NCBI GenBank assembly: GCA_903951425.1
Contig: CAJBBX010000135.1
Span: 48,836-112,835, forward strand
DNA length: 64,000 bases
Direction: 5' to 3'
Source of the DNA: an uncultured Chthonomonas sp.
GTDB taxonomy: Bacteria; Armatimonadota; Chthonomonadetes; Chthonomonadales; CAJBBX01
This document shows, one piece after another, positions 12,305 through 63,931 of this stretch. Every line of letters begins with the position of its first letter. The first letter of the stretch is position 1. The translations under genes were made by a program, and so were the position numbers. Below the pieces are notes generated by a model. It ran no database searches. It was not told the DNA's origin and worked only from the letters and a program-made list of their open reading frames with translations.

Positions 12305-12322
12305 CGCGGAACGGATGACGCC

Positions 12323-12601: not shown

Positions 12602-12605
12602 CTTC

Positions 12606-14054
12606 ATGGCCGAGAGCGTCGAGGCGTCTGCCGGAGGTCCCGCGGGTCGGCTGGCCACGGCGCTCAGCAGCTTGATCCTGGCCGCTGCGGTGGGCGCTGT
12701 GATCTGGACCGGCTGGTCACACACCCGCAACGGGCCGAAGACCACCGAGGTGGCGCGCCTGCAGTTGGAGGCGCTTGACCGAGCCCGTAGGGGCTACCTG
12801 ATGGATCCCGGCTCCGGCCCGACCGGCGCCATGCGGACCCGCTACCTCGCCGACGCCGTCCATGCCCTGGGTCAGCTGGCGCGGCTAGACCCATCGTTCG
12901 GCAACCTGCGCAAGCTCATGCTGACGGAGCATATGGCAGGTGGCGCGTGGCGCGGCACCGCGTTGCGCTTGCGGGGCCAGGGCGGGCAACGCCCCCTGCT
13001 GGAACGAGACGCCGAGATCGCGCTCTGGGCCCAGGTGCTGGGCGATGACCCCATCCCGGCCGAGGGCGTCGCGCCCGCCCGATCGCTGATCCGGACGATG
13101 GGACTGGGTTGGTTTGAGCACGTAGCCCTGAGCCGCCTCTACCAGCGGGCGGGCATGGCCCATGCCGCCGCAACCGAGACCCGTAGCGCGCGCTTCACGG
13201 CGGTCCTGATGGGTCTCTTCGACACGGGCGTGCTGGTGGCTTTGACCGCGGGCATCCTGGCCTTGGCCTTCGTCATCCGGTCCTGGCGCCGGCCGGAAGC
13301 CGAAGGCGGCGCGTCCGGCTGGCGCCTGCCCGAGCGGCTGAGCGCCGACGCCGCCCTCGCCTGCCGCGTCGCGTTCTGCGTCTACCTGGGCGGGATCCTT
13401 CTGGTGCGACTGGCCTCGCCTGCCCTACTGGGCCTGTCCCGCTCCGCGCCACGCGCCGCGGCCGACCCCATTGCCATGGGCCTGCTGTCGACGATCCTGC
13501 TGGCCCTGAGCGCGGCCCCGCCGGTGGCGGTGCTCGTGTGGCAGGGCCGCCGTGCGGGCCTCGGCATGGCCGAATTCGGGTTCACGGGCGCCCGGCCGTG
13601 GCGCGACGCGGGGCTGGCGCTGACGGGCTACCTGGCCATCTTCCCCGTGCTGACCGTGACGATCCTCGCCACCTCCAGGCTCCTGGGTGACGACCCCACG
13701 CCGCTGAACCCGGCCATTACGGCGTTCGCAGGCTCAGGTAGCTCCTTCGTTCGCGCAATGCTCCTGTGCCAAGCCGTGGTCGTAGCTCCCGTCGTGGAGG
13801 AGTTCATGTTCCGCGCGGTGCTCTTCCGCGGCCTGCAGGGCCAGATGCGGACGCGATGGGCCATACTCGGCTCCGCGGCGGTCTTCGCCGCGCTCCATCC
13901 CCAGCTTCCTGCAGGCTTTCCGGTACTCTTTGTGCTGGCGTGCGGCTTCAGCCTGCTCTACCTTAGGTCGGGCAACCTGCTGGCTTCCGTCCTGGCCCAC
14001 GCGCTCAACAACGGCGGGGTCTTCGTCTATCTGGCCCTGGTGGCCGGCACATGA
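12606..14054 (+). CDS. CPBP-family intramembrane metalloprotease
   Basis: VVVAPVVEEFMFRAVLFRGLQ (EExxxR), H in AALHPQLPAGF, and VLAHALNNGG motifs in a multi-TM context. Confidence 0.88.
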   Translation: MAESVEASAGGPAGRLATALSSLILAAAVGAVIWTGWSHTRNGPKTTEVARLQLEALDRARRGYLMDPGSGPTGAMRTRYLADAVHALGQLARLDPSFGNLRKLMLTEHMAGGAWRGTALRLRGQGGQRPLLERDAEIALWAQVLGDDPIPAEGVAPARSLIRTMGLGWFEHVALSRLYQRAGMAHAAATETRSARFTAVLMGLFDTGVLVALTAGILALAFVIRSWRRPEAEGGASGWRLPERLSADAALACRVAFCVYLGGILLVRLASPALLGLSRSAPRAAADPIAMGLLSTILLALSAAPPVAVLVWQGRRAGLGMAEFGFTGARPWRDAGLALTGYLAIFPVLTVTILATSRLLGDDPTPLNPAITAFAGSGSSFVRAMLLCQAVVVAPVVEEFMFRAVLFRGLQGQMRTRWAILGSAAVFAALHPQLPAGFPVLFVLACGFSLLYLRSGNLLASVLAHALNNGGVFVYLALVAGT

Positions 14055-14320
14055 GCAGGCTCCAGGTCCGCCTCACTCCGCGAGGAGGACGAAACTCAGT
14101 CGAGGCCCTGCGCGACGGTGTGCTGCACGTCCGGGTCAGCACACCGCCGGTGGACGGCGCCGCCAACCGCGCACTCATCGAACTCGTGGCGGATCGGCTG
14201 GGCGTCCCCAAGTCGAGCATCTGCATCACCTCGGGCTCCTCTTCGCGCCTCAAGGTGTTGGAGGTCGTCGGTCTCGATGATGCGGCGCTGGCCGCCCGCC
14301 TGCGCCGGGAGGGCGACTAG
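14051..14320 (+). CDS. DUF167 family protein (YggU-like)
   Basis: MSRLQVRLTPRGGRNSVEALRDGVLHVRVSTPPVDGAANRALIELVADRLGVPKSSICITSGSSSRLKVLEV. Confidence 0.9.
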   Translation: MSRLQVRLTPRGGRNSVEALRDGVLHVRVSTPPVDGAANRALIELVADRLGVPKSSICITSGSSSRLKVLEVVGLDDAALAARLRREGD

Positions 14321-14322
14321 CC

Positions 14323-14688
14323 ATGACTGGCACCTGGCCCGTGGCCATGATCACAGGTTCGCCGCTGCAGTGGGGCGCGCTGGCCGCCATCGTCATCGCC
14401 ATCTTCGCACCCAGGCTGATCCCTCCCCTGGTGCGCACGGTGACCGGCCTGCTGCTACGGCGCTACATCGGCGTGGCTCCTCCGCGACGGCGGAGCCAGA
14501 GCGCGTCGGACGTCCCGGCGGTTGAGGTGCTGCCGCCGGAGAAGCCCGCCCCCGCACTGCGCCGCGGCGCCAACAAGCCTGTGCGCTCCCGCGCCAAGGC
14601 CCGCCCCGCCGCCTCGCTGACCGGCGCCGTAGCGTTTGTCGGGCTGGTTGTGGCTGTGCTATCATGGTTGCTGCTGCGAGTTCGTTGA
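14323..14688 (+). CDS. Small membrane protein, N- and C-terminal TM segments, basic linker
   Basis: 121-aa ORF immediately downstream of the DUF167 gene; TM-like segments at both ends. Confidence 0.55.
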   Translation: MTGTWPVAMITGSPLQWGALAAIVIAIFAPRLIPPLVRTVTGLLLRRYIGVAPPRRRSQSASDVPAVEVLPPEKPAPALRRGANKPVRSRAKARPAASLTGAVAFVGLVVAVLSWLLLRVR

Positions 14689-14734
14689 GCAGCCATCGGT
14701 CCGGATATCGCTCGGTACCACGTAGGGAGCTACC

Positions 14735-14977
14735 ATGGCGCTAGTTAAGGTCTACATCACCCTCAAGCCGACACTGCTCGACGCGCAAGGCCGCGTGGTG
14801 CAGAACGCCTTGGCCTCGATGGGCTACGACGGCGTGAAGCAGGTCCGCGTGGGCAAGTACCTCGAGATGCATGTGGACGGCGAGGGTGACACGCTCCGCA
14901 AGCAGGTGACCGAGATGTGCGACAAGCTCCTGGCCAACCCGGTCATCGAAAACTACCGCTTCGAGGTCGGAGAGTGA
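14735..14977 (+). CDS. purS: Phosphoribosylformylglycinamidine synthase subunit PurS
   Basis: [50 protein letters not shown]...[20 protein letters not shown]. Confidence 0.96.
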
Positions 14978-15669
14978 AGTTCGGCGTCGTCCGGTTCCCC
15001 GGCTCAAACTGCGACCAGGACGCCTACTACGTCCTGCGCGACGTGCTAAACGTGCCGGTCGAGTACATCTGGCACGCCGACACGGATGTGCGGTCGTTTG
15101 ACTGCATCGTCCTCCCGGGTGGCTTCTCGTACGGCGACTATCTGCGCACCGGCGCCATCGCGCGGTTTGCCCCTGTGATGGATGCGCTTCGGGCCCATGC
15201 CGAGCGCGGCAAGTTCCTCATCGGCATCTGCAACGGCTTCCAGGTACTCTGCGAAGCCCACCTGCTGCCGGGTGCGCTGGTCCGAAATGTCGGCCTGAAG
15301 TTCATCTGCCGCCAGGTTCACCTCCGCGTCGAGAACGCCGCCACGCCCTGGACCACCGATGCGCGGACCGAGCGCCCCCTGCGCATCCCCATCGCCCATG
15401 GCGAAGGTTGCTACGTCGCCGACGCCGATACGCTTGCCGAGCTGCACGCCGGCAGTCGCATCCTCTTCCGCTACTGCGATGCGGAAGGGCACCCGACGAC
15501 CGACAGCAACCCCAACGGGTCCGTGGAGAACATAGCAGGCATAGCGAACGCGTCGTTCAACGTGCTGGGCATGATGCCCCATCCCGAGCGCGCCTCAGAG
15601 AGGCTGTTGGGATCGGATGACGGCAGGGGCATCTTCGCCTCGGTCATCAAACGCATCGCCCGGTCCTAG
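14974..15669 (+). CDS. purQ: Phosphoribosylformylglycinamidine synthase subunit PurQ
   Basis: GTG start overlapping the purS stop; [64 protein letters not shown]. Confidence 0.97.
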
Positions 15670-15684
15670 CCGCTGACGCTCGAT

Positions 15685-44196: not shown

Positions 44197-47697
<3,501 letters not shown>

Positions 47698-47808: not shown

Positions 47809-48564
47809 CTAGCCGGCGTCGGCGATGATCTCGCCGGTGTCGGGGTCGGCCACGGGCTGATCCAGCGTCATGCGCAGAAGGAAGTCGCGGACCGGCTCCG
47901 ACTCGCCGCCGGGAAGGGCGCGCCGAATCCAGAGGTTCTGGCGGGCCGCTCTGACGGTGACGTCGATGGGTACGCAGGCCGACTGGAATGCGCTGAGGGC
48001 ACGCAGCAACGTGGTCAGCGCGAACTTCTTGGCCTGACCGATCTGAACGTTGAGTACGTCCTCACGCTGGGTGTCGGTATCGACCTCGACCCAGGCGCCC
48101 TCATTGGGGATGATGCGGGCCTGGTAGAGCACCCGACCGGAGAAACTGAGGTTCTCTTCAAAGTAGACGCCGGGCGAACGCGCCAGCTGGCTGACGACCA
48201 CGCGCTCGGCGCCGTTGACGATGAAAGTGCCCTTGTCGGTCATCAGGGGCAGGTCGCCCAGATACACCTCGGACTCGATTACGTCCTTGTTAGCCTGCGT
48301 CAGTTCTACTTTGGCCTTGATCGAGGCCTCAAACGTCATATCCCGGTCGCGGCAGTCCTCAATGGCGTACTTGGGCTCACCCAGCACGAAATCCCTGAGG
48401 GAGATCGAGGTGCTGCCAGTGAAGTCAGTGATAGGCGAGAAGCTCTCAAAGAGCTCCGGCATGCCTTCTTCGAGGAACCAGCGGTAGGAGTCAAGCTGAA
48501 TCTCGATGAGATTCGGGATGTCTACGACGTGAGGGATGCGCTTCGAGGCATGTTGGATGTCCAA
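47809..48564 (-). CDS. rpoB: RNA polymerase beta subunit, N-terminal 251 aa, ending at the in-frame TAG
   Basis: PNLIEIQLDSYRWFLEEGMPELFESFSPITDFTGSTSISLRDFVLGEPKYAIEDCRDRDMTFEASIKAKVEL...YLGDLPLMTDKGTFIVNGAERVVVSQLARSPGVYFEENL; TTG start with AGGAGG RBS 8 nt upstream. Same frame as 44197-47697. Confidence 0.95.
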   Translation of the reverse strand: MDIQHASKRIPHVVDIPNLIEIQLDSYRWFLEEGMPELFESFSPITDFTGSTSISLRDFVLGEPKYAIEDCRDRDMTFEASIKAKVELTQANKDVIESEVYLGDLPLMTDKGTFIVNGAERVVVSQLARSPGVYFEENLSFSGRVLYQARIIPNEGAWVEVDTDTQREDVLNVQIGQAKKFALTTLLRALSAFQSACVPIDVTVRAARQNLWIRRALPGGESEPVRDFLLRMTLDQPVADPDTGEIIADAG

Positions 48565-48787: not shown

Positions 48788-49531
48788 CTAGTGGAGCGCC
48801 TCCTGACCCTCCATCTCGCCGATGCGGATGTCAAGGTCCTTGCGCTCTTCGACTTTGGCGATCTGCCCGTCGCGGATCCAGACGATCCTGTCCGAAACGT
48901 CGAGCATCTTCAGGTCGTGCGTCGCCGAGATGATGGTGACGCCCTGGTCCTTGTTCAGCGACTTGAGCAGGTCGATGATCTCTTTGCCCGTGTTGAGGTC
49001 CAGGTTGCCCGTGGGCTCGTCGGCGAGGATGATCGACGGATTGTTGGCCAGCGATCGGGCAATGGCCACGCGCTGCTGCTGTCCGCCGGAGAGCTCCGAG
49101 GGCTTGTGGTGCAGGCGGCCGCCCAAGCCGACCAACTCCAACAGCTCGATGCCACGCTCTACTCCTTCGTCCGTAGACATGCCGGCAAACACCGTCGGCA
49201 GCGTCACGTTCTCCAAGGCAGTCATGACGGGGATCAGGTTGAAGGTCTGGAAGATGTAGCCGATGGTATGGCAGCGGAGGTAGGCGAGCTCCTGCGCGTC
49301 CAACTGGGCCATGTCGACATCGTTGATGAACACGCTACCGCTGGACGGCTTGTCGAGGCCGCCGACGGCGTTAAAGAGCGTCGACTTGCCGGAACCGGAC
49401 GGGCCCATGATGGAGATGTACTCGCCGCGATAGATATCGAGGCTCACACCGTTCAGCGCCTTGAGGGTCTGGTCACCCATTGTGTATTCCTTGACCAGAT
49501 CCTTGGTCCGCACCACGTACTCATTGGCCAT
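48788..49531 (-). CDS. ABC transporter ATP-binding protein, LolD/MacB type
   Basis: [86 protein letters not shown]. Confidence 0.94.
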
Positions 49532-49595: not shown

Positions 49596-50309
49596 CTATA
49601 CCTCAGCACGCAACGCCGCCACAGGCGGCATCTTGGCCGCCCGGTACGCCGGGAATATGGTTGCAAGAAACGTTAGGACGGTACCGATCGCGGCGGACTG
49701 CCCGCAGAGGCGCAGCGACTGCATCCAGAAGTAAGGGCCGAATACCTCGACGCCATCCATGGCCAGCCGGATCAGCGAGATGACCAGCCATCCGACGACA
49801 AAGCCAAGCACCGAAGCAATGAAGCCGAGGAAGCAGGACTCTATGAAGAAGAGCTTCACGATGAAGCTGTCTAGGGCCCCAAGGCACTTCATGGTGCCGA
49901 TCTCCTTGAACCGCTCGGTGACGGACATCAGCATGGAGTTGGTGATGCCCACCGTGCAGACCAGGAGCGCCATGATCGATAGCCACTGCAGGCGCGTACC
50001 GGCGGCGGCCTCTTCCTTGGCGTTGGCGGCCGCGGAGTTGATCAGGATCACATCCTCGGCAGAGAGCTTCCCGCCACGCGCCAATGTTGCGCGTTTCTCA
50101 TCGACCCGGGTCTGCTGGGCGTGGCTGAAGACGGCCGACATGCGCACCGAAGCGAAGAAGGCGATGCCCAGCAGGATGCCCGCGGCCGTGATCATTGATC
50201 GCCAGAAGCGGATGCGGATGCTCTTCAGGCTGATCTCCACGGCCTTGGTGAACGGCAGCTTGATCTGGCGCCGAATCACGGTGCCGGAAGCGCTCACCGG
50301 CTCACTCAT
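49596..50309 (-). CDS. Minimal FtsX-like ABC permease (short extracytoplasmic region)
   Basis: SIRIRFWRSMITAAGILLGIAFFASV...MLMSVTERFKEIGTMKCLGALDSFIVKLFFIESCFLGFIASVLGFVVG...FPAYRAAKMPPVAALRAEV. Confidence 0.88.
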   Translation of the reverse strand: MSEPVSASGTVIRRQIKLPFTKAVEISLKSIRIRFWRSMITAAGILLGIAFFASVRMSAVFSHAQQTRVDEKRATLARGGKLSAEDVILINSAAANAKEEAAAGTRLQWLSIMALLVCTVGITNSMLMSVTERFKEIGTMKCLGALDSFIVKLFFIESCFLGFIASVLGFVVGWLVISLIRLAMDGVEVFGPYFWMQSLRLCGQSAAIGTVLTFLATIFPAYRAAKMPPVAALRAEV

Positions 50310-50737
50310 CTTTGCTTCCCCCCTCGCTCGTAGAACCCGACAAACCGCCGCTCAGACAGCATCTGAAGGAAGGTCGTAACCGACATCTCGGCCTCGCGAC
50401 GGTTCATCTTGTACTTGCCGCTCATCTCTTTGACTATGGCCTCCAGCGTATGCTCACCGTCGCAGAGCTGCCAGACGAATGTGCCGACCTCATCAAGCTG
50501 GACCGCCTTTGCTTCCGGGAGGTGCACCAGGAAGCTCAACGCCCTGCCCAGCTTGTCCTTCCTATAGGGCACCTTCAACAGGGCCTCGCCCTGTTCGTCG
50601 CACTCCCACTCGATCGCCGAGTTCCGCACCGGCCGTAGCCTGAAGGCCACCGAACGATCCGTCGGCGGGCCCAGCTTCAGGAACGGCAGGTACTTCCCTG
50701 CCAGCATCCGCGCACGGAGGCCTAGTGGCACTCGCAC
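50306..50737 (-). CDS. PqqD-family protein (RRE-fold-like)
   Basis: KVPYRKDKLGRALSFLVHLPEAKAVQLDEVGTFVWQLCDGEHTLEAIVKEMSGKYKMNRREAEMSVTTFLQMLSERRFVGFY matches the PqqD-like pattern. ATGA overlap with the FtsX gene. Confidence 0.78.
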   Translation of the reverse strand: MRVPLGLRARMLAGKYLPFLKLGPPTDRSVAFRLRPVRNSAIEWECDEQGEALLKVPYRKDKLGRALSFLVHLPEAKAVQLDEVGTFVWQLCDGEHTLEAIVKEMSGKYKMNRREAEMSVTTFLQMLSERRFVGFYERGGKQR

Positions 50738-51753
50738 CTGGCGACCACCTCATCGATCAGGCCGACGGTCTGCTTGCCCCGCCAGACCTGAACTGCGTAT
50801 ATTCTGTTCGCTTCCGGGCAGGACCAGGCCGCTGCCTCATAATGCAGCGCCGGGTTCTTGGTTGCCGCGCCCTCGGCCAGCGCACGCGCCCACGCCGACG
50901 GCGACTTTACCGACCCAGACGTCATCACAGCCTTGTGCCCGTTGACCTCGCTCTCAGCCACGCGGCCGGCATGTTGCCGAACCGGGCACGTCTTCTCGAA
51001 CCACTCGCCCAGCGAGAAGCGCCGTAGCGCCACGTCAGCCAAACCCCACCGCTCGACAACCAGTTTTTCGCCGCCGATGCGTTGGAACTCCAGCCTCAGG
51101 TAGCCGGACATCAACTTCTGAGCCTTCAACGAGAAGTTGGACGGCACTCCGATCACCAGATCGAAAAGAGCCCACGTCTCCCAACCATCGTCGCCGTGGT
51201 CGCGCATCTCACTGAACATCACGGACGCCACCGCCGGCACCGGGTCGCGCGCGGCGCCCACGACCTGAGCGATCACCACGCGCTTGCACTCGCGGCAGTA
51301 CCAGATCTTCCCCTGCCCCTGCCCGTTTCCAGTCCACGAGAAGTTGTGGGCCATGCGCTGCCCGGCCAACTCCTCGCTCTCCGGCTTAACCTTGCACTCG
51401 AACTCGGAGCGGCTCTTCTTGGCCGCCTTGGCCGTGTCCTTCAGGAACGCATCGAGCGTCTGCTTCAGGTTCGGATCGCCGCCCGCGACGGCTCCTCCAC
51501 CCCTGTAGGTCTTCCAACTCCGCCAGGCCCACTCGGCAACCGACCGAGACTGCGTGTACTTCGGGTCCGTCCACTTCACCTGGGCGAACATGCTGCCCGG
51601 GGAGTCGACTTTCAGGTACCCGTTTGATCGATCCAGGGAAAACCCTGTTAAGTTCCACTCCGGCGGAAGGAGAAATCGGACCCCTTGCCATCCTATCAGC
51701 GTCTGCGGAGCGTCCTGCTCCACGTTACCGTCATCATTCGAACGAACCGGCAT
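50722..51753 (-). CDS. Uncharacterized 343-aa protein
   Basis: Overlaps the downstream PqqD-like gene by 16 nt; no signal peptide; IGWQGVRFLLPPEWNLTGFSLDRSNGYLKVDSPGSMFAQVKW; internal CRECKRVVIAQVVG. Confidence 0.7.
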   Translation of the reverse strand: MPVRSNDDGNVEQDAPQTLIGWQGVRFLLPPEWNLTGFSLDRSNGYLKVDSPGSMFAQVKWTDPKYTQSRSVAEWAWRSWKTYRGGGAVAGGDPNLKQTLDAFLKDTAKAAKKSRSEFECKVKPESEELAGQRMAHNFSWTGNGQGQGKIWYCRECKRVVIAQVVGAARDPVPAVASVMFSEMRDHGDDGWETWALFDLVIGVPSNFSLKAQKLMSGYLRLEFQRIGGEKLVVERWGLADVALRRFSLGEWFEKTCPVRQHAGRVAESEVNGHKAVMTSGSVKSPSAWARALAEGAATKNPALHYEAAAWSCPEANRIYAVQVWRGKQTVGLIDEVVARCECH

Positions 51754-51789: not shown

Positions 51790-52620
51790 CTACTTCTGCT
51801 CGACGTGTCCGTCGAGGTACAGCACATTGTTCCTGCCAGTATGCCTGCCCGGACTGGGCAACGACACTACGTCGTCCGCTCCATCCTGCCGCATGTCTGA
51901 GCTATCGTACAGCAAAGGTGTGGTCGCGCCCCCCTTCGTTGAGGAGACGTCGGCCCCACCCAGAGCCATATTGAACGCATAGCCAAAGCCGCCGGGCTTG
52001 CCCGCGTCCGGGCAGTGCAACCAGGCGTCCTCCGGCACATTGTCGCGGATCGCCGTCATCCACGAATTGGCCGGGGGCAGTTTGCCGTCCCAGCTGTCCG
52101 CATAGAGCATGAGGGCGGCGTGCAGCTGCTTCAGGTTCTCCGGGCACGTCTTGTTCATCTCGGCCTTGTATGACTCCGATGGCGCCAGCACCCGTGCAAA
52201 CGCCACGAGGGGCTGGAGCCGCGCGGTCGTGGCAGCCAGTCCGATGACCAGCGCCGCCACGCCGGCCACCCGGGTAGCGCCTGATCCCGCAAGGCACCCC
52301 AGAGCTGCGGCGCCCACCAGCGCGGGCGCCAGTTCAAGCAGCGGCCTGAGCGCCACGTCGGTGCCGTTCAACCTCGCCGTCTGGACCGAGGCAAGGCTGA
52401 GCAGCACGATCCATAAAACGGATGCCACAACCGCCAGCGTGGTTCGAACCAGCGGGGCCGCGCCACGTGCGCTGACCGCACCGGCGATCACCTGCCCAAC
52501 CACAGGCAACCACCCGAGCAACAGCGACAGCGCCACCAGTAGCGCGGTGCGGCCTGCGAGGCCCACGCCGCGCACCGGGCGGTCAGTCGGTTGTTCGGGT
52601 GTTCCGCTAGCCATCATCAT
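51790..52620 (-). CDS. Membrane protein with C-terminal H-X9-DG (DUF1559-like) motif
   Basis: Several TM segments, then NLKQLHAALMLYADSWDGKLPPANSWMTAIRDNV...LHCPDAGKPGGFGYAFNMAL...SLPSPGRHTGRNNVLYLDGHVE. Confidence 0.75.
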   Translation of the reverse strand: MMMASGTPEQPTDRPVRGVGLAGRTALLVALSLLLGWLPVVGQVIAGAVSARGAAPLVRTTLAVVASVLWIVLLSLASVQTARLNGTDVALRPLLELAPALVGAAALGCLAGSGATRVAGVAALVIGLAATTARLQPLVAFARVLAPSESYKAEMNKTCPENLKQLHAALMLYADSWDGKLPPANSWMTAIRDNVPEDAWLHCPDAGKPGGFGYAFNMALGGADVSSTKGGATTPLLYDSSDMRQDGADDVVSLPSPGRHTGRNNVLYLDGHVEQK

Positions 52621-52624
52621 GCAC

Positions 52625-54721
52625 CTAGAACGGCAGGTAGTTCACCGACTTGGCGATGAGGGACAGCGCGATCGATGCCATGGCGATGAGGCCGGTGCCG
52701 CAGGAGAAGCCCGCCAGCAAGACCGGCGCGTACTGCCGCCACTGGTCCACGCCAAAGCGCTTTTGGAAGTAGCGTCGACTAAGCCAGGCCCCGAAGAAGG
52801 TCGGCACGATGTCCGACGGCCACGCGCCCACGCCTCCCACCATTCCGTAGAAGAAGAGCATCGGCAGCTTCAGCACCGACATGATGCAGTAGACTACCAA
52901 GCCGATCCCCATGCCCCAGGCGATGCGCATACCGTTGATGCCCTCGAGCACCCACTTCGGCCCGTCCGGCTTGTTGATCGTCATGAACATGGCCGAGAAG
53001 GTAGCCGAAATGGGCCAGAACCGCTGGGCGTACGGATGCTGGGACGACGGGATTGAACTGGTATGCCAGAAGAACGCCCAGAAGATGAACGACGAGACCA
53101 GGAAGATCGGCAGGACCGCGAACTCAACCTTGATGACACTGGTGAACTTGGTGCCGGTCAGTTCTACCTCGCGGAAGCGCTGGGCCAGCGGGCCGTAGTC
53201 CGCCAGCGGAATTGGCGCATACCAGATATCGGCATGCGGATAGCCGCTCTTCATGATCGAAGCTTCACGCAGGAACGGGAACGAGACGCCGCTACCCGTG
53301 AGGCCCATCATTCGTGCGCTGATGAAGGAGTTGATGGGCGTCCAGACCAGACCGAAGAAGATCATGATCCAGATCGGGAACTGGCCGCCGTGCCCGTCTA
53401 CTTTCAGCAAGTACTGGGCGAGGATGATGTAGAAGCAGGTGATCGAGAACCAGGTCACCAGCGGGATCCAGATCGGGACATCGCCGCGGCCCTTGGGCAC
53501 ATCGGCAAACATGCCCTTGCCCGACAGGGTCTTCTTGAACGTCATCAGCGCTCGGACGACCTGCACGATACCCATGAACGCCACGGCCAACTGCAAGCCG
53601 ATACCGATGGACGTCCAGAACTTGATGTCCGTGACCATGCGGGTGTTGATGGCGTCCATGCCCCGCGTCCAGCCGTTGTTTGTGGCATCACCAAACATGC
53701 CCATACCGTGCAGGATGGTCGGCATGGGGAAGACCTTGCAGAAGAGCGCACTCACGACGCTGCCCGCCACGATATGGTATGGCAGCACGAACCCGACCAG
53801 CACCGCGCCGAGGTTGCCGGAGAGGCCCGTTAGGGCGCCCGGAAGCAGACTCTCGGTGCTGGATGTCAGGTCAAAGAACGGGATGGGTATGAGCTGCAGC
53901 GCCTTGCCGAAAACGACACCGGTAAAGACCGGAATACCCACATAGAAGAAGCCGAAGACCAGGCCCGCGACACTGCCGATGGAGAAGACGCGCCACCGCC
54001 ACGACTCTTCCTTGCTGGCCGCCTCGGCCAACGCCGTCGCGCCCGATGCAGCAACAGGAGCCATGGGGAACGGCAACTTCTCAACGTCCGAAGTCACCCG
54101 GAACAACACGTAGCCGACGCTCATCCAGTTCAGGCGGCCCAGCACCTCGTTGACGACCAGGAGCATGATGGGCACGGCCCACATCGAGTCGAAGAACGTC
54201 CGCTTGGTCAGGGCTGCAGAGCCTGCCGGCGGCACGACCCAGTTCGGGATTTCGCTGGCAATCAGCCCCGCCTGCGGCGCCTGCCGGAAGTACTGGTTCC
54301 AGATCAGGGCGCCGAACGGGCCGCCGGAGATACCCCTGTCTGCCATCAACAGGCTGGAGAGCATGGCGGCCACGTAGTACAGGATGTAGATCTCCTGCCG
54401 CTTCATTGGCAGGAAGGATCGCCGCATGACCTCCGAAAAGAGGACGATGGTGACCCAGGTGGCCGCTTCACCCAGCCCCTGGCCCGCCACGAGACCCAGG
54501 TAGAGGGCGCCGGGCAGCATCACGAACCCAACGAACAGGGCGCCCGCTACGGTCTTAGCGGTAAAGCCCTCTTCGAACTTGGGGGCCTGAACCTGTGCGC
54601 CCTCTTCCTTGGAGGCGTCCTCTACGACGGCCCTAGCTCGGGCAATGTCATCTACTGCCAAGCGTCCGGTCCTCCCTTGTGATCCAACACCCGGTTCCCG
54701 CGCACCGGTGCGCTTGCGCAA
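52625..54721 (-). CDS. OPT-like multi-TM protein (resembles families annotated DUF6785/DUF6784)
   Basis: ~14 hydrophobic segments; FEEGFTAKTVAGALFVGFVMLPGALYLGLVAGQGLGEAATWVTIVLFSEVMRRSFLPMKRQEIYILYY; LLAGFSCGTGLIAMASIALSLIAKSVNYLPF. Confidence 0.75.
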   Translation of the reverse strand: MRKRTGAREPGVGSQGRTGRLAVDDIARARAVVEDASKEEGAQVQAPKFEEGFTAKTVAGALFVGFVMLPGALYLGLVAGQGLGEAATWVTIVLFSEVMRRSFLPMKRQEIYILYYVAAMLSSLLMADRGISGGPFGALIWNQYFRQAPQAGLIASEIPNWVVPPAGSAALTKRTFFDSMWAVPIMLLVVNEVLGRLNWMSVGYVLFRVTSDVEKLPFPMAPVAASGATALAEAASKEESWRWRVFSIGSVAGLVFGFFYVGIPVFTGVVFGKALQLIPIPFFDLTSSTESLLPGALTGLSGNLGAVLVGFVLPYHIVAGSVVSALFCKVFPMPTILHGMGMFGDATNNGWTRGMDAINTRMVTDIKFWTSIGIGLQLAVAFMGIVQVVRALMTFKKTLSGKGMFADVPKGRGDVPIWIPLVTWFSITCFYIILAQYLLKVDGHGGQFPIWIMIFFGLVWTPINSFISARMMGLTGSGVSFPFLREASIMKSGYPHADIWYAPIPLADYGPLAQRFREVELTGTKFTSVIKVEFAVLPIFLVSSFIFWAFFWHTSSIPSSQHPYAQRFWPISATFSAMFMTINKPDGPKWVLEGINGMRIAWGMGIGLVVYCIMSVLKLPMLFFYGMVGGVGAWPSDIVPTFFGAWLSRRYFQKRFGVDQWRQYAPVLLAGFSCGTGLIAMASIALSLIAKSVNYLPF

Positions 54722-54761: not shown

Positions 54762-57700
54762 TTAAGCCGCCGGTTCCGGAGAGGCGGCGCTGGGGCCGCC
54801 CTCCTGCTGCGCCAGGTACTTCTCGCGCTCGCCCTGCTTGAGGGTGCGCCAGATCAGGAACTGCTTCCTCAGCGTGTTCAAGAAGCGGCGGTTGACGCGC
54901 TTCCAGTTCGAGATATCGCCGCTTTCGCGGTGGATCGTCACGCTGATGTCGAACACGTCCGCCATGTCCGTAGGCTTCGTTTCGATGGCCACGCGCTGGC
55001 TCACTCCCAGGTCGAAGGGCGCCAGCCATGTCATGCAGCGAATGCTGTACATGATGCCCATCGCAGGCGGTTCGACGCTACCCGGCGCCTGTGGCACGGG
55101 CACGGGCGACTCGTCAGCTTCGACGTTCTGCGTGACGAAGTCACCGATGCTGTACTCCTCGTAGGCCGAGAACCACTCCTGGAGGAAGCCGTTGAGGCCG
55201 CTGGCCTGCTCGCCGGTAACGGAGAACGGAAGCGGAATAGTCCAGTCGTCGCCGTCAGGATCCGGAACGCGCCACGTGCGGTCGATGGCGGGCGTCGCCA
55301 CCTCAGCCGCCTTGCGCGCCGGATAGAGCGTCGATAGGAGGACCACGCCGACGACGATCAGTGTCGTCATGACCGCGGAGACAGACGAGAAGTTCAGGTA
55401 GAGGCCCTCGAAGGCGCCCGTCCAGACCAGGATCTTGGTGGCCAGTTGGCCCACGAGATATCCGGCAACGGAGCCGAGGATGGCGTAGACCATGGCCTCG
55501 GCGATGAACAGCATGGCGATATGCGACGGCGCCAGACCGATCGACGAGAAGATATGGATCTCACGCACTCGCTCGAAGACCGAGCCGAGCATCGTGTTTA
55601 GAACGATCAGGGCCGCGATGAGAACCGGGAAGAAGACCAGTTCCAGCCCCTTGCTCGAGGTGGCCGCGATAGACGAGTAGCGCACGATGGTCGGCTTGCT
55701 GCCTGCTTCCTTGGGGACGCGCCCCGCGTAGAGGTTCAGGCCAAGGCGATGCATCAGCGGACCGAGCTTCTTGGAGACGCGGTCAGCATCGCCGAAGTCG
55801 ATGGCGATGGACCGTAGCTCGGCGCCCAGGTTCGTCGCCGTCTGGTAGGGCACCAGGAAGATCGCATCGGGCTCCAGGTGCGTGTACTCGCGGAAGCCGG
55901 TTTCGCCGCCGGACTTGCCCTGCCGCGACATCTTCTGCATCAGGATGAAGTCGACGGGGGTCAGCGGCTCGCTGTCGAGGTCGACGAGCTTCTTGAACTT
56001 CTGGATGTCGTAGATGCCGACGACCTGATAGTCGACGCCCGCATAGGAGACGGTCGCTTTGCCCACGTCCTGCGGGTCGATGCGTAGCGCGGCGGCTATC
56101 ACGTCCGGGAGGATCACCGTGTAGACATCATCGGGCCCGAACCAGCGCCCGGCGATGAGGGCATCCTGCGGCCGCGTGACCATCGACTCCTGCGGCGTGA
56201 GGCCGACCAGCGCCTTGGCATCGAACTGGGCGTCGCCGCGCTTTACAGTGAGGAATGACTGCTCGCCCAGTTGCGTGCCGAAGAACCAGGAGCGCGGGGC
56301 TACGGAGTGGTTGGCCCCGTACTCATCGGCCAACAGGCGGTAGGCGGGCTCCTGCAACTGGTCCCACATGGCGGTCCGGATCATCAGGCCGTTGTAACGG
56401 GGAACGCCCGGCGCCGGAACCTGGTTGAACCGCATGGTCTGCACCACCGACGTGAACGACAAGACCGTAAAGGTCAGCAGGACGAGCGTGATGCAGGTCA
56501 GCACGGTGCGGGCCTTGCGGCGGCGCATGTTGGAGATGCCCAGGTTGAAGGCCGCCATGGCGACCGACACGCGACCGATGTCCGCCTTGTGGACGCCGGA
56601 CACCTGCTGGTTCATCTGCTTCAACTGCTCCTCGAACTTGCCGGTGATGAGCGCGATGACGATACACGAGAGCGCCAGCATCACGAACGCAAGGAGCACG
56701 ATGACCGGGTTCATGGTGATATCGAACGCCGGGTGTACCTGACTAAAGACCCAGAAGATCACCAAGAAGATGAGAGCCGCAAAGCCCAACTGGCGCTTCA
56801 GGTCATAGCTGCCGAAGACGAGCCGCTCCATGAAGTAGGCAAACGGGATCAGCAGGGCCAGATAGAAGAGGACGCCCTGGACTACGTCGATGGCCGTGCG
56901 CTGCACGTCAGGATAGGCTCGCGACGTGAAGCCCCACGCCGCGCGGCTTTCGGCGTCGAACCGTTCCCAGTTCCTGTCGGCCCTAGCCTTCTCAGCTTCA
57001 TCGATGGACGACTTAGCCATGGCGTGAAGGTCGTTGATGCCCTCATTGATGATGCGGTACTTGGCCAGGCGGCGAATGCGGAAGTCGTTCAGCGTCCACA
57101 TGTCCTTCGCCACGTGGAGCGCCGAATGGTAGATGGCGCCGCCGCGGGCGATCTCACGCTTGGGGTCATAGTTGTCCAGTGTGACCTTGCCCCGCATATC
57201 GGCGTCCTGGGCCTCATTGGGATCGCCGCCAACCAGGTAGCCTCGGCCCTCGGGTTGCTCTTTGTCCGGGTTGATGAGCAACAGCCGCGTGGCGCCGGGA
57301 CCGGCTCCCATAAGGATCTTCAGCCGCGCGCCGGGTTGCGAGAAGATGACCGCCATGTCCTCGACGTAGGAGCCCACAAGACCCGGATCCTGCGGGTCCA
57401 TGGCGAAGCCGAACATCCGCGGCTCACCGTTGCTGTCGCCATCGAGCACGTCCAGTGTAGCCAGTGCGCGAAGCGACTGCTGGTCCACCAGGTCATAGAC
57501 CGAGGTGGCGACGCACCGGAAAAGGATGACCGAGACTTCCTTCTGGGCCGTGGTGACCATAACATCGAGCGGCATGAACTTGGCGCCGGTGACGCCCAGG
57601 TCGGGCGCATAGTCGATGTCGCCTCGGCGCGGGTTCGGGATCATCTGGCCGGTAGGCTTGCCGGTTGCGGCATCCAGCTCGGGCGAGGTGTCACGCGTAT

Positions 57701-59702
57701 CGAGGTGGTACGCGGCCACGCGGGTTACAGCGTTGCCGCCGTAGGCTGTGAGCGGCGCGACGCCGCGGAACTCGAAGACGTTCTTCTCCTTCGACTTCTC
57801 GTCGGCGTAGACGGCCTGGATCATGTTGCCCCGGACGCCCATGTAGCTCTTGGTCCGGTTGCGGATGACGGCGAGTGAGTTCGCCAGGGCCGGGTCGGCG
57901 TAGGCGATGAAGGTCTTCTTCGGGTTGTAAAGCGTGACGCGGCCACGGACGGTTGCGAAGCCGCCCTGCAGTGCCATTCGAGACCACTTGGCGGGCTCGG
58001 TGATGGGCATACGCTGGGCGTTCACGTCGCCTGGCTCGTTGGTGTCGGTCAGGATGTGATAGAACTGGCAGGCCAGCAACCGGGTCTGGAACGCCAGATT
58101 GGCGACGTTCACGCGATCGGCGGTGTCGAACGGCGTATCGACCAGTGCGCGGGCATCGTCGATGCTGGCAAACGTGACACCCAGGCCCTGGGCCATGGTG
58201 ATCACTTCGGAGTCGAACGCGGGCTTGCCGGGTATGTGGTTACGCCAATTCTTGCCGTCGACCGGGTTCACGCCGTCAGCGAAGGCCTTCTTCGGGTCGA
58301 AGCCAAGCGCGTTGCCGATCTTCTCGGCGTTTTCACGGCAGACGCGGGCGATGTCCGAGAACCGGCCCTGGATGTCCTCGCGGACATCGTAGAACCAGCT
58401 CTTGTAGAAGATGCCCACGCCCCTGCTCTGGCTACTCAGGTCAAGCCCGGCCCACAGGTAGATGCTGTCGCGCTTGCGCAAGGCCTGATCACGCGGCTGA
58501 ACATAGAAGAGCACGTTCAGGACCACCGCGCATACCACGAACACAGCCAGAACCCAGGAGCCGGCGTTCATGCGCTTGCCGCCGGGCGTGACCGCCATGA
58601 CCCGCGTGGCCAGCCAGATCAGAAGCAAGACTGCTATGCCGCCCAGCCAGAGGGCCGTGCGAGTGGCGTTCTCTTTGGCGACAGCTACCTCGGCCATGCT
58701 GGGCTGCACCCAGCCGTCGATATGCGCGTTGAGGAACTCGCGGACGCCCTGCAGGGCCTGGAAGTGCGCGCTGGTGGCCACGAAGTAGATGGATCGCTTG
58801 GGCGGGTTGGCCTTGTAGAGGCGCGCCAGTTCCAGCATGCTCGCCAGGCCGCAGGCCGACTCGGCGCCGGGCGCCAGGGCGGGGACCACCGAAATCGAAT
58901 CGTAGTAGGACTGCAGGACGACGACCTGGTCCTTCATCTTCGGATCGGTCCCTTCGATGGACCCGAAGAACCACTTGGCCTTGCGCGACTCCCACGGCAT
59001 ATCGCACTTCACCGTGCAGGTGGGAGGCTGGGCGCCGGCGGTGCTCACCAGAAGCGGCGCGACGTCAGCCCTGCTCACCCAGAACCGGGGGATGTTAATA
59101 GGAATCGAGATGAATTTCGCTTCAGCCTCGCCCCGCATGGTGGTTTCGGGAGCGATGAAGATCACGGCTCGGGCGCCCAAGCGGGTGGCATTGAGCCACT
59201 CGGCCCGGCTGTTGAAGTCAGCCAGAACGATGTTGCCTTCGACATCCTTGCCGTTGAAGTTGCTGATCTTGCCGTCGCCGACGTAGACGAGCTTGCCGGT
59301 GAGGCCTTTGGTAGGCAGTTCGGACGTGCGTACGAGGTTCGGCCAGAGCGCGAACAGGGGCTTCGTCACTCCGTTCACGGTGATGCTCGCGCCCTTGTCG
59401 ATAGGCACGGTGACATCATACGAGCCGGAGCGCACTTTGTCGGTACCAAATATGTCGCCGAACTGCTGCTCGACGTAGTCGGCGGCCTGAGCATCGCCGG
59501 GATAGCCGGCCACGCGCGACCCGAAACCGGCCAGCGTGGTGACTGTCTCGGTCAGGTTCTTGGTGCTGATCTGAGCCGTTAGCTTGCGGTACTGGTCCGA
59601 TGCGTCCGCGGCGAGAGCCCTTGGCCCGACCACCACCGAACTCAGAACGAGGACCGAGACAAAGGCGTGCAGTCCCACGGTCGGAATCCGGGTCATTCTC
59701 AT
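54762..59702 (-). CDS. Giant FtsX permease fused to degenerate M28 peptidase-like/PA-like ectodomain
   Basis: Start moved to MRMTRIP... (signal peptide). PA-like and M28-like segment QVVVLQSYYDSISVVPALAPGAESACGLASMLELARLYKANPPKRSIYFVATSAHFQALQGVREFL; FtsX core NLGISNMRRRKARTVLTCITLVLLTFTVLSFTSVV ... LELVFFPVLIAALIVLNTMLGSVFERVREIHIFSSIGLAPSHIAMLFIAEA. Confidence 0.85.
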   Translation of the reverse strand: MRMTRIPTVGLHAFVSVLVLSSVVVGPRALAADASDQYRKLTAQISTKNLTETVTTLAGFGSRVAGYPGDAQAADYVEQQFGDIFGTDKVRSGSYDVTVPIDKGASITVNGVTKPLFALWPNLVRTSELPTKGLTGKLVYVGDGKISNFNGKDVEGNIVLADFNSRAEWLNATRLGARAVIFIAPETTMRGEAEAKFISIPINIPRFWVSRADVAPLLVSTAGAQPPTCTVKCDMPWESRKAKWFFGSIEGTDPKMKDQVVVLQSYYDSISVVPALAPGAESACGLASMLELARLYKANPPKRSIYFVATSAHFQALQGVREFLNAHIDGWVQPSMAEVAVAKENATRTALWLGGIAVLLLIWLATRVMAVTPGGKRMNAGSWVLAVFVVCAVVLNVLFYVQPRDQALRKRDSIYLWAGLDLSSQSRGVGIFYKSWFYDVREDIQGRFSDIARVCRENAEKIGNALGFDPKKAFADGVNPVDGKNWRNHIPGKPAFDSEVITMAQGLGVTFASIDDARALVDTPFDTADRVNVANLAFQTRLLACQFYHILTDTNEPGDVNAQRMPITEPAKWSRMALQGGFATVRGRVTLYNPKKTFIAYADPALANSLAVIRNRTKSYMGVRGNMIQAVYADEKSKEKNVFEFRGVAPLTAYGGNAVTRVAAYHLDTRDTSPELDAATGKPTGQMIPNPRRGDIDYAPDLGVTGAKFMPLDVMVTTAQKEVSVILFRCVATSVYDLVDQQSLRALATLDVLDGDSNGEPRMFGFAMDPQDPGLVGSYVEDMAVIFSQPGARLKILMGAGPGATRLLLINPDKEQPEGRGYLVGGDPNEAQDADMRGKVTLDNYDPKREIARGGAIYHSALHVAKDMWTLNDFRIRRLAKYRIINEGINDLHAMAKSSIDEAEKARADRNWERFDAESRAAWGFTSRAYPDVQRTAIDVVQGVLFYLALLIPFAYFMERLVFGSYDLKRQLGFAALIFLVIFWVFSQVHPAFDITMNPVIVLLAFVMLALSCIVIALITGKFEEQLKQMNQQVSGVHKADIGRVSVAMAAFNLGISNMRRRKARTVLTCITLVLLTFTVLSFTSVVQTMRFNQVPAPGVPRYNGLMIRTAMWDQLQEPAYRLLADEYGANHSVAPRSWFFGTQLGEQSFLTVKRGDAQFDAKALVGLTPQESMVTRPQDALIAGRWFGPDDVYTVILPDVIAAALRIDPQDVGKATVSYAGVDYQVVGIYDIQKFKKLVDLDSEPLTPVDFILMQKMSRQGKSGGETGFREYTHLEPDAIFLVPYQTATNLGAELRSIAIDFGDADRVSKKLGPLMHRLGLNLYAGRVPKEAGSKPTIVRYSSIAATSSKGLELVFFPVLIAALIVLNTMLGSVFERVREIHIFSSIGLAPSHIAMLFIAEAMVYAILGSVAGYLVGQLATKILVWTGAFEGLYLNFSSVSAVMTTLIVVGVVLLSTLYPARKAAEVATPAIDRTWRVPDPDGDDWTIPLPFSVTGEQASGLNGFLQEWFSAYEEYSIGDFVTQNVEADESPVPVPQAPGSVEPPAMGIMYSIRCMTWLAPFDLGVSQRVAIETKPTDMADVFDISVTIHRESGDISNWKRVNRRFLNTLRKQFLIWRTLKQGEREKYLAQQEGGPSAASPEPAA

Positions 59703-60519: not shown

Positions 60520-60823
60520 CTGGGAAGAGCCCATCAGCAACGACGAGCGCGACCGCGTGCTGGACAAGATTGCGAGCCAGGTCGTGGGACGGGGCCTCGA
60601 GACCCCTGCCATCCTGTTCCTTGAGATGCACAAGCCGTTGACCTTCATGGCCAGCCAGGGCCTAGTGGTGACGTCGCCGCTCCTGGCCCCGCTGATCGGC
60701 TTTGAGCGGGTTCACACCGTATCGCGCTTGCTTGAGGACCGCAGCAATGTCGAGCGCCTCATACGCCGGATCGAGGACCTAACCATGCAGAAGAGGACGC
60801 CTGTTGAAGGAGAGACACCTTGA
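60512..60823 (+). CDS. Small 103-aa uncharacterized protein
   Basis: MPSWEEPISNDERDRVLDKIASQVVGRGLETPAILFLEMHKPLTFMASQGLVVTSPLLAPLIGFERVHTVSRLLEDRSNVERLIRRIEDL; overlaps both neighbours. Confidence 0.72.
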   Translation: MPSWEEPISNDERDRVLDKIASQVVGRGLETPAILFLEMHKPLTFMASQGLVVTSPLLAPLIGFERVHTVSRLLEDRSNVERLIRRIEDLTMQKRTPVEGETP

Positions 60824-61602
60824 CCCACGCCAGCGACAAGTGGGAGGCCGCGTTCCTCGTGGCCCTGTGGAGCATCATCGTGCTCGTCACGGTCATCACG
60901 GCCCAGCGAGGCAGGAAGTACTTCATCCGCCGGATCCCGGGCCTGAACGCCATTGACGAGGCTGTGGGCCGCGCCACCGAGATGGGCCGCCCGATCCTGA
61001 TGGTGCCGGGCCTCAGCGGCCTGGGCGTCGTGGGCCTGCAGGCCCTGACGATCTTCAGCTACATCATCAAGACGGCTGCCAAGTTCGGCAACCGGATCAT
61101 GATGCCCGTAGCCGACCCGGCGCTCTACACCGTTGCCGAAGAGGTCGTGCGGGAGTCCTACGCTTCCGCGGGCCGCCCGGAGGACTTCGACCCGACCTCA
61201 GTCTACTTCCTGTCCGACAGGCAGTTCGCGTTCGCTTCCGGCGTGGCGGGAACGATCCACCGCGAGAAGGTTGCGGCTAGTTTCCTCTTCGGCGACTTCT
61301 TCGCGGAGTCCCTGATCTTCGCTGAATCCGGGCAGCAGGTCGGCGCGATCCAGGTGGCTGGCACAGTGCAGACCACGCAGCTACCCTTCTTCATCGCCAG
61401 CTGCGACTACACTATTATTGGCGACGAGTACTACGCAGCCTCCGCTTACATATCCCGGGAGCCGACCCTGCTCGGCAGCCTCGTGGGCCAGGATATCTGC
61501 AAGGGCATGATGCTGCTCATCGTAGTGCTCGGAACGCTGGCGCTGTCCATTAAGCCCCTGGGCGAGAAGTTCTTCTTCGTCCAGTGGTTCACGATTAAGT
61601 AG
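60820..61602 (+). CDS. Membrane protein resembling DUF6754 family
   Basis: RGRKYFIRRIPGLNAIDEAVGRATEMGRPILMVPGLSGLGVVGLQALTIFSYIIKTAAKFGNRIMMPVADP...; N- and C-terminal TMs. Confidence 0.72.
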   Translation: MTHASDKWEAAFLVALWSIIVLVTVITAQRGRKYFIRRIPGLNAIDEAVGRATEMGRPILMVPGLSGLGVVGLQALTIFSYIIKTAAKFGNRIMMPVADPALYTVAEEVVRESYASAGRPEDFDPTSVYFLSDRQFAFASGVAGTIHREKVAASFLFGDFFAESLIFAESGQQVGAIQVAGTVQTTQLPFFIASCDYTIIGDEYYAASAYISREPTLLGSLVGQDICKGMMLLIVVLGTLALSIKPLGEKFFFVQWFTIK

Positions 61603-61617
61603 GAGGCGCGGGCAACA

Positions 61618-62430
61618 ATGAACCCTATTCAGTCGTTCCTGAGCCGCGCATTCCCTGCGCTGCACGGCGGCGCGCTGGCCGGTGCGGTGGCCGGCTGCGT
61701 CGTGGCGTGCGTCATCGCCGTGGTCATCCTGCAGGCGCTGCCGGGCAAGGCGCGCAAGGCGGTGATCGCGGCCGTGACATTCGTCGCGGGCCTCTTCTAT
61801 GCGCTGGAGTTCTTCCTCCCGGCGAACGCGCAGGACGAGAACATCCTGACCTTCGCGGTTCCCACGGTCGGCAACGTCACTAATGTGCTGGGCGGCATGA
61901 CGCTTGGCCTCGGAGTGCTGAGCCTGATCCGTATCCATGGCTCCAACGTGGTTAAAGTGAAGTCGGGCTGGGAGAACAGCATGCTGCTGCTGGTCTCCAT
62001 GGTCGTGATGGCCGTGGCGGGCATCTGGTATGGGCAGACGCTCTTCTACCGATCGCTCTTCCGTGACGTGCTCAACAGCTTCGACGCAGCCATGTTCGCA
62101 GTGCTGGCCTTTTTCATCGTGTCGGCCGCCTACCGGGCGTTCCGCATTAAGTCGGCGGAGGCGACGCTGCTGATGGTTGCAGCCCTGGTCGTGATGCTGG
62201 GGCAGATTCCGATCGGCCAGTACCTAACGCACTGGCTACCCGTGAAGGGCTCCTACCTGTCGCTGTTGCGGCTCGACAACATCAGTAACTGGCTACTCTC
62301 CACGGTGAACGCGCCGGCCCAGCGAGCCATCGGCTTCGGCCTCGGCATCGGTGGACTGGCCATCGCGCTGCGCATCTGGCTCTCGCTGGAGCGCGGGGCC
62401 TACTTTGAGGCGAAGGCGGACGAGTCATGA
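61618..62430 (+). CDS. Polytopic membrane protein, uncharacterized
   Basis: Multiple TM segments; coupled to the next gene by ATGA. Confidence 0.72.
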   Translation: MNPIQSFLSRAFPALHGGALAGAVAGCVVACVIAVVILQALPGKARKAVIAAVTFVAGLFYALEFFLPANAQDENILTFAVPTVGNVTNVLGGMTLGLGVLSLIRIHGSNVVKVKSGWENSMLLLVSMVVMAVAGIWYGQTLFYRSLFRDVLNSFDAAMFAVLAFFIVSAAYRAFRIKSAEATLLMVAALVVMLGQIPIGQYLTHWLPVKGSYLSLLRLDNISNWLLSTVNAPAQRAIGFGLGIGGLAIALRIWLSLERGAYFEAKADES

Positions 62431-63263
62431 GCAACGCAGGGCACCCACTCACCCGCATCAACCGGCACTGGCTCTACGGAGCGCTCCTGGCCATCGTCGT
62501 GATCGGCCTCATCGTGCCCATCCCGCTTCCGCTTGCCGTCTCACCCGAGGCCACACGGTTCTACGACGCCATCGAGAACGCGCCGAAGGACAAGCTCGTC
62601 CTCGTCTCCACGCTCTGGAGCGCCAGCACGCAGGGCGAAAACCGACCACAGACGCAGGTCGTGCTAAAGCACCTGATGAAGCGCCGTATTCGCTTCGCCC
62701 TGATCGCGTTCGGCGACGCCCAATCGACCACGCTGGCGCAGGAGCTCGCTGAGGAGCAGGCCAGGATCTACAAGTACGAGTACGGCAAGGACTGGATCAA
62801 CCTCGGGTTCCGGCAGGACATCGCGGGAACACTCAAGGGCATGGTGCGTGACATCAATGAGACGCTCAAGACCGACTCAGTGAACCGCCGCCCGCTGGCA
62901 AGCTACCCGGTGATGGCCGGCGTGCGGAACGTCGATGACCTCAGCGTGATCGCCGAGTTCTCCGCATCCGGCAACTATAAGTCATGGGTCGGCCTCGTCG
63001 TCGGTTCCACCGATGCAGCGTTCTGCTACGCGCCCACTTCCGTCATGGCGCCCGAGCTTTACACCTACCTCGACTCGGGACAAATCCGTGGGATGCTGTT
63101 CGGCATCAAGGGCGCGGCCGAGTACGAGCAGCTGCTGGGTGAGAAGGGCTTCACCACACGGGCCATCACGCCTGTATCGCTGGCGCTGGTGCTGCTGTTC
63201 GTCCTGATCGGCCTGGGCAACTACGGCATGTACGCGACCAAGAAGATGGAGGGCAACTCCTGA
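62427..63263 (+). CDS. Bitopic membrane protein with large extracytoplasmic domain, uncharacterized
   Basis: N-terminal TM (WLYGALLAIVVIGLIVPIPLPLAV), soluble domain KDKLVLVSTLWSASTQGENRPQTQVVLKHLMKRRIRFALIAFGDAQ, C-terminal TM. Confidence 0.72.
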   Translation: MSNAGHPLTRINRHWLYGALLAIVVIGLIVPIPLPLAVSPEATRFYDAIENAPKDKLVLVSTLWSASTQGENRPQTQVVLKHLMKRRIRFALIAFGDAQSTTLAQELAEEQARIYKYEYGKDWINLGFRQDIAGTLKGMVRDINETLKTDSVNRRPLASYPVMAGVRNVDDLSVIAEFSASGNYKSWVGLVVGSTDAAFCYAPTSVMAPELYTYLDSGQIRGMLFGIKGAAEYEQLLGEKGFTTRAITPVSLALVLLFVLIGLGNYGMYATKKMEGNS

Positions 63264-63931
63264 TGCCTACCGCATCCACCTGGTCGCACCCCATCGGCGT
63301 CTGGTTCGGCGCCATCGGGACGCTGGCCCTCTTCTCACTGATCTATCGGGAGAACCGCGTCTACCGGCTCTTCGAGCATATCTTCATCGGGCTGGCGGCC
63401 GGCTACCTGATCAAGACCACCTGGACCGAGGTGCTGGGTCCCATGTGGTTCACGCCGCTCTTCCGCGACGGCCAGTGGCCCTGGGCGCTCGTGGCGGGGT
63501 TCGGGCTGCTCTTCTACACCATCTTCTCGAAGAAGCATAGCTGGATGAGCCGCATCGCCATCGGCACCCTGATGGGCTTCGCCGCAGGTCAGGCGTTCCA
63601 GACGACGGCATCGGACTACATCCCCCAGATACGCAAGTCGTTCAAGCCGCTCTACGTCACGCCGGACATGATCCCTGACGGCTCCGGCCTGACGACGCTG
63701 GGCATCGGGCTGAACAACCTGCTGTTCGTCTTCATCATGGTCACCGTCCTCACCTACTTCTTCTTCTCCTTCGAGCAGAAGAACAAGGTCATCGCCGCGT
63801 CGGCCCGGACCGGTCGGCTGATGCTCATGTTTGCATTCGGGGCCATCTTCGGCTCGACGGTCATGGCGCGCATGGCCCTGCTCATCGACCGCGTCTGGTT
63901 CCTGATGCACAACTGGCTGCACCTGCAGTAA
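63263..63931 (+). CDS. Polytopic membrane protein, uncharacterized
   Basis: ~6 hydrophobic segments; start overlaps the preceding stop. Confidence 0.72.
   Translation: MPTASTWSHPIGVWFGAIGTLALFSLIYRENRVYRLFEHIFIGLAAGYLIKTTWTEVLGPMWFTPLFRDGQWPWALVAGFGLLFYTIFSKKHSWMSRIAIGTLMGFAAGQAFQTTASDYIPQIRKSFKPLYVTPDMIPDGSGLTTLGIGLNNLLFVFIMVTVLTYFFFSFEQKNKVIAASARTGRLMLMFAFGAIFGSTVMARMALLIDRVWFLMHNWLHLQ

Follow-up and report, generated by a model that had tools for sequence, protein, structure and literature searches.

In E. coli, the Type VII ABC permease YbbAP feeds substrate to TesA (PMC12646458), and the mechanics of Type VII ABC systems have been reviewed for MacB (PMC5985334). Both parts of the locus described here, a Type VII ABC complex and an M28 peptidase fold, are separately of known kinds. 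M28 homologs are not always peptidases, nicastrin being a eukaryotic example, and in other phyla an M1 aminopeptidase is fused to an ABC permease, a fusion for which we found no description in the literature searched. In that literature, with most subscription papers outside it, there was also no paper on an M28-FtsX fusion or on a system made of such a fusion, an OPT-like protein, FtsX, and an ABC ATPase, and no description of the M28/permease combination, of the replacement of its pocket, of a transmembrane (TM) hairpin within M28, or of an OPT-like partner. Here we analyzed such a fusion, encoded in a 64,000-nucleotide stretch of DNA (the window), together with its relatives (Table 1).

Table 1 Features of the fusion protein and of its operon, with the basis of each assignment
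Feature	Coordinates	Strand	Basis or conservation
M28-like/MacB-FtsX fusion protein (P0001, FUS), 1646 aa	54762..59702	-	Open frame, Pfam, homologs
Predicted signal peptide, residues 1-31 (hydrophobic core 8-26)	59610..59702	-	Sequence, hydropathy
PA domain and N-terminal half of M28-like domain, residues 35-338	58689..59600	-	Pfam, profiles, AlphaFold2/Foldseek
Y266-Y267-D268, position of M28 H97-x-D99	58899..58907	-	H to Y; D in 71/71
E281, position of bridging ligand D117	58860..58862	-	E in 59, D in 12 of 71
H313, position of catalytic E151	58764..58766	-	H in 71/71
TM hairpin inserted within M28, residues 343-401	58500..58676	-	Hydropathy, AlphaFold2 helices, inner-loop charge
C-terminal half of M28-like domain, residues 411-560	58023..58472	-	Profile-profile comparison, AlphaFold2/Foldseek
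D421, position of ligand D179	58440..58442	-	D in 71/71
D522, position of ligand H256	58137..58139	-	D in 69/71, N in 1, E in 1
Beta-rich domain, residues 561-860	57123..58022	-	AlphaFold2 model; no known sequence family
Three linker TM helices, hydropathy peaks 940-958, 972-990, 1001-1019	56646..56885	-	Hydropathy, model
Permease TM1 and probable MacB-like periplasmic domain, residues 1066-1344	55671..56507	-	Pfam, model, Foldseek
FtsX domain TM2-4, residues 1357-1466	55305..55634	-	Pfam, PDB sequence search
Conserved cytoplasmic C-terminal domain, residues 1474-1630	54813..55283	-	Homolog conservation, model
OPT-like multi-TM transporter, 698 aa, phyletic partner	52625..54721	-	Operon, co-occurrence
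276-aa protein, three hydrophobic segments, weak H-X9-DG pseudopilin-like C-terminus	51790..52620	-	Operon member in nearest relatives
P343, 343-aa soluble conserved operon protein	50722..51753	-	No known family
Minimal FtsX half-transporter, 237 aa, almost without ectodomain, phyletic partner	49596..50309	-	Pfam, operon, co-occurrence
LolD/MacB-class ABC ATPase (open frame from 49576)	48788..49531	-	Pfam, NCBIfam, operon

Results

Conservation of the fusion

The fusion gene consists of uninterrupted codons and is conserved over its whole length in relatives, which rules out a chance open reading frame; a longer open frame starting at 60248 adds a 5′ extension that lies beyond the family alignment. 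The gene is present as a single copy in its own genome and has matches in 55 of 61 related genomes. Conservation in relatives, on which an earlier sequence-only reading of this DNA had staked its proposal of an M28-like ectodomain fused to an FtsX permease, extends to 198 of the 292 genomes searched from the phylum Armatimonadota (the union of two different queries, which gave 194 and 193), with about one third of the 292 having no fusion. Its presence is patchy within one large family (f14), and it is absent from another family (f5) and from one genus of a third (f15). The named fusion-bearing records, taken from the close-match patterns of one scan (17 loci), are metagenome genomes of Armatimonadetes, Chthonomonadia, and Fimbriimonadia; none of the named matches among these 17 loci came from another phylum.

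In the loci read, contig-cut fragments aside, the open frames of the fusion span ~1500-2100 aa, which indicates that what has been conserved is the fusion as such. The ectodomain is present in the full-length members among these loci, and no permease-only or M28-truncated relative was found among them. In family f19 (L050, at 9374-15670, and L097), the proteins reach ~2100 aa and carry an extra insert of ~360 aa, located after the beta-rich domain and before the linker TM helices. Four other members (L053, L054, L061, and L065) have no recognizable operon partners in the flanks fetched; three of them (L053, L061, and L065) have helical inserts in M28 and are second copies in their genomes. It is possible that members of this type form a second functional class.

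A complete M28 fold with an inserted hairpin

Pfam detected M28 at residues 249-327 (5.8e-08), a match covering only positions 6-80 of the 193 in the profile. The possibility that the domain is truncated after residue ~330 was rejected, as profile comparison, structural model, and Foldseek all place a C-terminal half further along the protein. The AlphaFold2 model of residues 31-860 (pLDDT 89.2, pTM 0.88) was matched by Foldseek, end to end, to PA-M28 aminopeptidases (2ek8, E 5.6e-23), as well as to the transferrin receptor and GCPII, and the match to BSAP had a TM-score by target of 0.62. When 34 members without long inserts were compared, profile to profile, with 17 M28-family proteins from relatives, the alignment (probability 99.9, E 7e-34) ran over 400 columns and reached the end of M28, setting D421 on M28 D179 and D522 on H256 (DTPxD versus HTxxD). 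As modeled, the M28 fold is complete and is interrupted here by a predicted TM hairpin. The PA and M28 assignments of the sequence-only reading thus hold in the model, the structure search, and the profile comparison, but the hairpin within the M28 domain had escaped it.

This hairpin comprises two hydrophobic helices (343-369 and 380-401) with a positively charged loop between them, and it is inserted after the helix that follows the former E151-E152 motif, ahead of the strand bearing D421. Of the 71 members compared, 41 have a short loop at the insertion site, 18 have a TM hairpin, and the remaining 12 have a charged helical insert. All 18 hairpin loops carry a net positive charge, as expected of a cytoplasmic turn. 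On a permease-based tree, the hairpin state changed at least 8 times, with 6 changes forced by well-supported branches, which makes this loop an evolutionary hot spot for insertions. The same genome also encodes separate full-length M28-family proteins (L129, L138, and L150), well above the Pfam cut-off, so ordinary M28 proteins have not been replaced by the fusion.

A replaced but constrained active site

The dizinc ligands of M28 enzymes, H97, D117, E152, D179, and H256, correspond to Y266, E281, F314, D421, and D522 of the fusion, and the general base E151 has given way to H313. The full ligand set was found in 0/71 sampled members. Tyrosine or phenylalanine occupies the H97 position in 65/71, with histidine in L051 only, and F314, next to H313, is phenylalanine in 50/71; the loss of H97 and E152 leaves each canonical zinc site short of a ligand. 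Y266 and F314 are, however, the only drifting positions among the seven active-site equivalents in the 71 relatives. The other 5 are among the 24 fixed columns of the 246 in M28 (hypergeometric p 1e-4, counted in 71 homologs with D and E pooled as one class), and D476, W486, D516, R518, D526, and Q539 are further invariant residues. Decay, as a pseudogene or a relaxed domain, was rejected because the pocket columns are fixed. Judging from the alignment, the canonical dizinc site has not decayed; a different set of residues, itself fixed, has taken its place.

The motifs that had led the sequence-only reading to propose a pseudo-peptidase are exactly as it gave them (SYYDS at 265-269, GAESACGL at 279-286, and VATSAHFQAL at 308-317). 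The survey of homologs that it had suggested for the zinc ligands agrees with its view that the canonical set is lost, through changes of H97 to Y, E151 to H, E152 to F, and H256 to D. Its description of the site as altered or degenerate is apt for the zinc chemistry but not for the constraint on the pocket.

Permease half and C-terminal domain

Pfam identified FtsX with 51.8 bits (1e-13) against a curated cut-off of 25.5, in the same single frame as the M28-like ectodomain. The covalent link between the two that had been read from the sequence is supported. MacB_PCD at 1066-1234 (2.7e-04) scored 21.7 bits, below its cut-off of 27; Foldseek aligned this region with MacB periplasmic domains and the permease half with MacB/LolCDE, the low TM-scores of the latter following from a weaker model (pLDDT 77.7, pTM 0.67). 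A PDB sequence search returned MacB, LolC, and YtrF for the permease and a bacterial PA-M28 aminopeptidase over residues 40-323. The score of the fusion against NCBIfam lolCE (19.6 bits) does not reach the cut-off of 362.45, and the MacB cut-off is likewise not reached. No family match was found for the beta-rich region.

The C-terminal extension of ~130 aa noted earlier does exist but is a conserved domain rather than a tail. Few parts of the protein are as well conserved. It has the motif W-[LV]-A-P-[FY]-D-L-G-V-S and matched no sequence family; its model hints at a helix-grip (START/Bet v1) fold (Foldseek E 0.02-0.06). Taken with the order of the linker and permease helices, the signal peptide and the even number of helices in the hairpin would place the head outside and the C-terminus inside.

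Operon and phyletic partners

The genes for the OPT-like, 276-aa, 343-aa, minimal FtsX, and ATPase proteins lie downstream of the fusion on the same strand. The order fusion-OPT-(276)-343-FtsX-ATPase is found in most of the loci read with flanks long enough, and the FtsX-ATPase pair is upstream of the fusion in other families. The copy number of the 276-aa protein differs among relatives, and no family match was found for P343. LolD is the best NCBIfam match of the ATPase, under its cut-off. A Pfam OPT match was obtained for 1 of 29 OPT-like members (1.4e-05) and not for the protein in the window.

Among the 292 genomes, 195 have both the fusion and the OPT-like protein, 3 the fusion only, 7 the OPT-like protein only, and 87 neither (phi 0.92), in counts that pool complete and fragmentary genomes and with a Fisher test that ignores shared ancestry. 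Minimal FtsX (E < 1e-40) was detected in 16/16 fusion-positive versus 0/14 fusion-negative genomes. In one genome (G182), the fusion, OPT-like, and minimal FtsX genes are all present, ~190-250 kb apart on one contig. A partnership with the neighboring ABC ATPase and minimal FtsX, as proposed from the sequence, is supported by the shared operon and by the distribution of minimal FtsX; the OPT-like partner was missing from that proposal.

Adjoining the fusion, a divergent cluster encoding four membrane proteins (60820-63931, plus strand) is kept in the same-genus locus L036; the first protein matches DUF6754 (1.2e-93) and the others have no Pfam family. Elsewhere in the window, rpoB contains a single in-frame stop (47809-47811) between pieces in the same frame (47809-48564 and 44197-47697). 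It reads through in L036, and the stop is probably an assembly base error or a rare defect.

Discussion

The fusion looks like a machine rather than a decaying enzyme. The explanation that we favor, with a probability of roughly one half, is a Type VII (MacB/LolCDE-like) ABC mechanotransmission complex that has a repurposed M28 head and works with an OPT-like transporter. The fusion would provide one half of the transmembrane core of this complex, and the 237-aa minimal FtsX would probably be the other half, giving an asymmetric heterodimer of permeases. A dimer of the LolD-like ATPase would be the motor and, by what is known of Type VII ABC systems, its strokes would move the periplasmic parts. 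The M28 head, having presumably lost its peptidase activity, may act as a receptor or effector whose pocket (Y266, D268, E281, H313, D421, and D522, with D516, R518, and D526) most likely binds a ligand, perhaps a peptide or the amino terminus of a protein. In such a mechanical cycle, the permease, through its ATP-driven strokes, would make the head open and close or release its ligand. Coupling to the OPT-like protein might then consist of loading or gating peptide uptake, although the OPT likeness is weak and the word peptide thus rests on the M28 ancestry and a distant transporter. A more specific proposal, that the ABC motor mechanically drives the OPT-like transporter through the M28 head, by peptide capture and loading or by gating with the pocket as substrate receptor, is speculative and rather unlikely.

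The head could instead be an active hydrolase with a rebuilt center, in which H313 is the general base, a single metal is coordinated by E/D281, D421, and D522 (or H313), and the ABC complex feeds in the substrate. In favor of this, no part of the domain is more constrained than the pocket, and the family profile matches 2anp, which we take to be the Aeromonas aminopeptidase with the E151H mutation. A "functional E151H aminopeptidase" appears in the title of a paper referenced in PMC4320195. However, the parallel is incomplete, as that mutant keeps all five metal ligands, whereas in the fusion the H97 and E152 positions (mostly Y and F) are lost and drifting and H256 has become D. We consider an active hydrolase unlikely, but it has to be taken seriously: the invariant E/D281-H313-D421-D522 set at the old active site, with D268, could bind a single metal, a case of the shifted ligands that the sequence-only reading had named as counting against it, and an engineered E151H M28 enzyme has been called functional, so that a head that binds its ligand rather than hydrolyzing it is likely only.

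A Lol-like machine for the extraction of lipoproteins or lipids, in which the M28 head replaces LolA as the acceptor or selects amino termini, seems improbable to us. It would fit an ATPase closest to LolD, a C-terminal domain that weakly resembles START/lipid-transfer proteins, and searches of 13 and 26 genomes in which no lolCE match passed the curated threshold; Omp85 is found in relatives, which implies that an outer membrane is present. Nevertheless, near-complete genomes without the fusion (G041, G098, G099, G105, G110, and G112) also have no lolCE-like match at 1e-8, a poor fit to an essential sorting role, while sub-threshold lolCE-like permeases occur in other genomes and the co-occurrence with the OPT-like protein is left unexplained. 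Finally, an ordinary MacB-type efflux permease whose peptidase appendage has decayed and makes no difference to function would agree with the clear MacB/FtsX similarity and the loss of canonical peptidase chemistry but is very improbable given the complete fold, the pocket residues fixed phylum-wide, the phyletic partners (OPT-like and minimal FtsX), and the ectodomain kept in full-length members of the loci read.

If the mechanotransmission complex that we favor is correct, the few Type VII ABC systems known so far gain a member with a covalently attached periplasmic effector of its own, which descends from a peptidase, has been rebuilt to do something else, and is conserved across much of a phylum. 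The near-complete co-occurrence with the OPT-like protein and minimal FtsX defines a multi-gene system that can be tested. It also raises the question of what links a force-transmitting ABC motor to a substrate receptor, and perhaps to a secondary transporter as well, and it offers an example of an active site that has been wholly replaced and still is among the most conserved parts of its fold.

As in the YbbAP-TesA system of E. coli (PMC12646458), a Type VII ABC permease and a LolD-class ATPase are combined here with a periplasmic unit of hydrolase fold. TesA, however, is a separate and active GDSL esterase, whereas the M28-fold unit of the fusion is covalently N-terminal and its active site is replaced; in addition, the two transmembrane halves of the fusion system are separate and very unequal proteins. 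With MacB and LolCDE, the fusion shares the FtsX domain and probably a MacB-like periplasmic domain between TM1 and TM2, and with LolCDE a separate LolD-like ATPase, but it differs from both in its extra ectodomain of ~930 residues, its three linker TM helices, and its conserved cytoplasmic C-terminal domain. The aminopeptidases BSAP/YwaD (6hc6) and 2ek8 have the same PA and M28 fold over their whole length. Unlike them, the fusion is membrane-tethered, its metal and catalytic residues are replaced, and part of its family has a TM hairpin or helical insert within the catalytic domain. The transferrin receptor and nicalin, eukaryotic non-peptidase homologs that are both matched by the family profile, are similarly membrane proteins whose M28-derived ectodomain serves in binding or assembly, but they have other active-site residues and a single-TM tether in place of an ABC permease.
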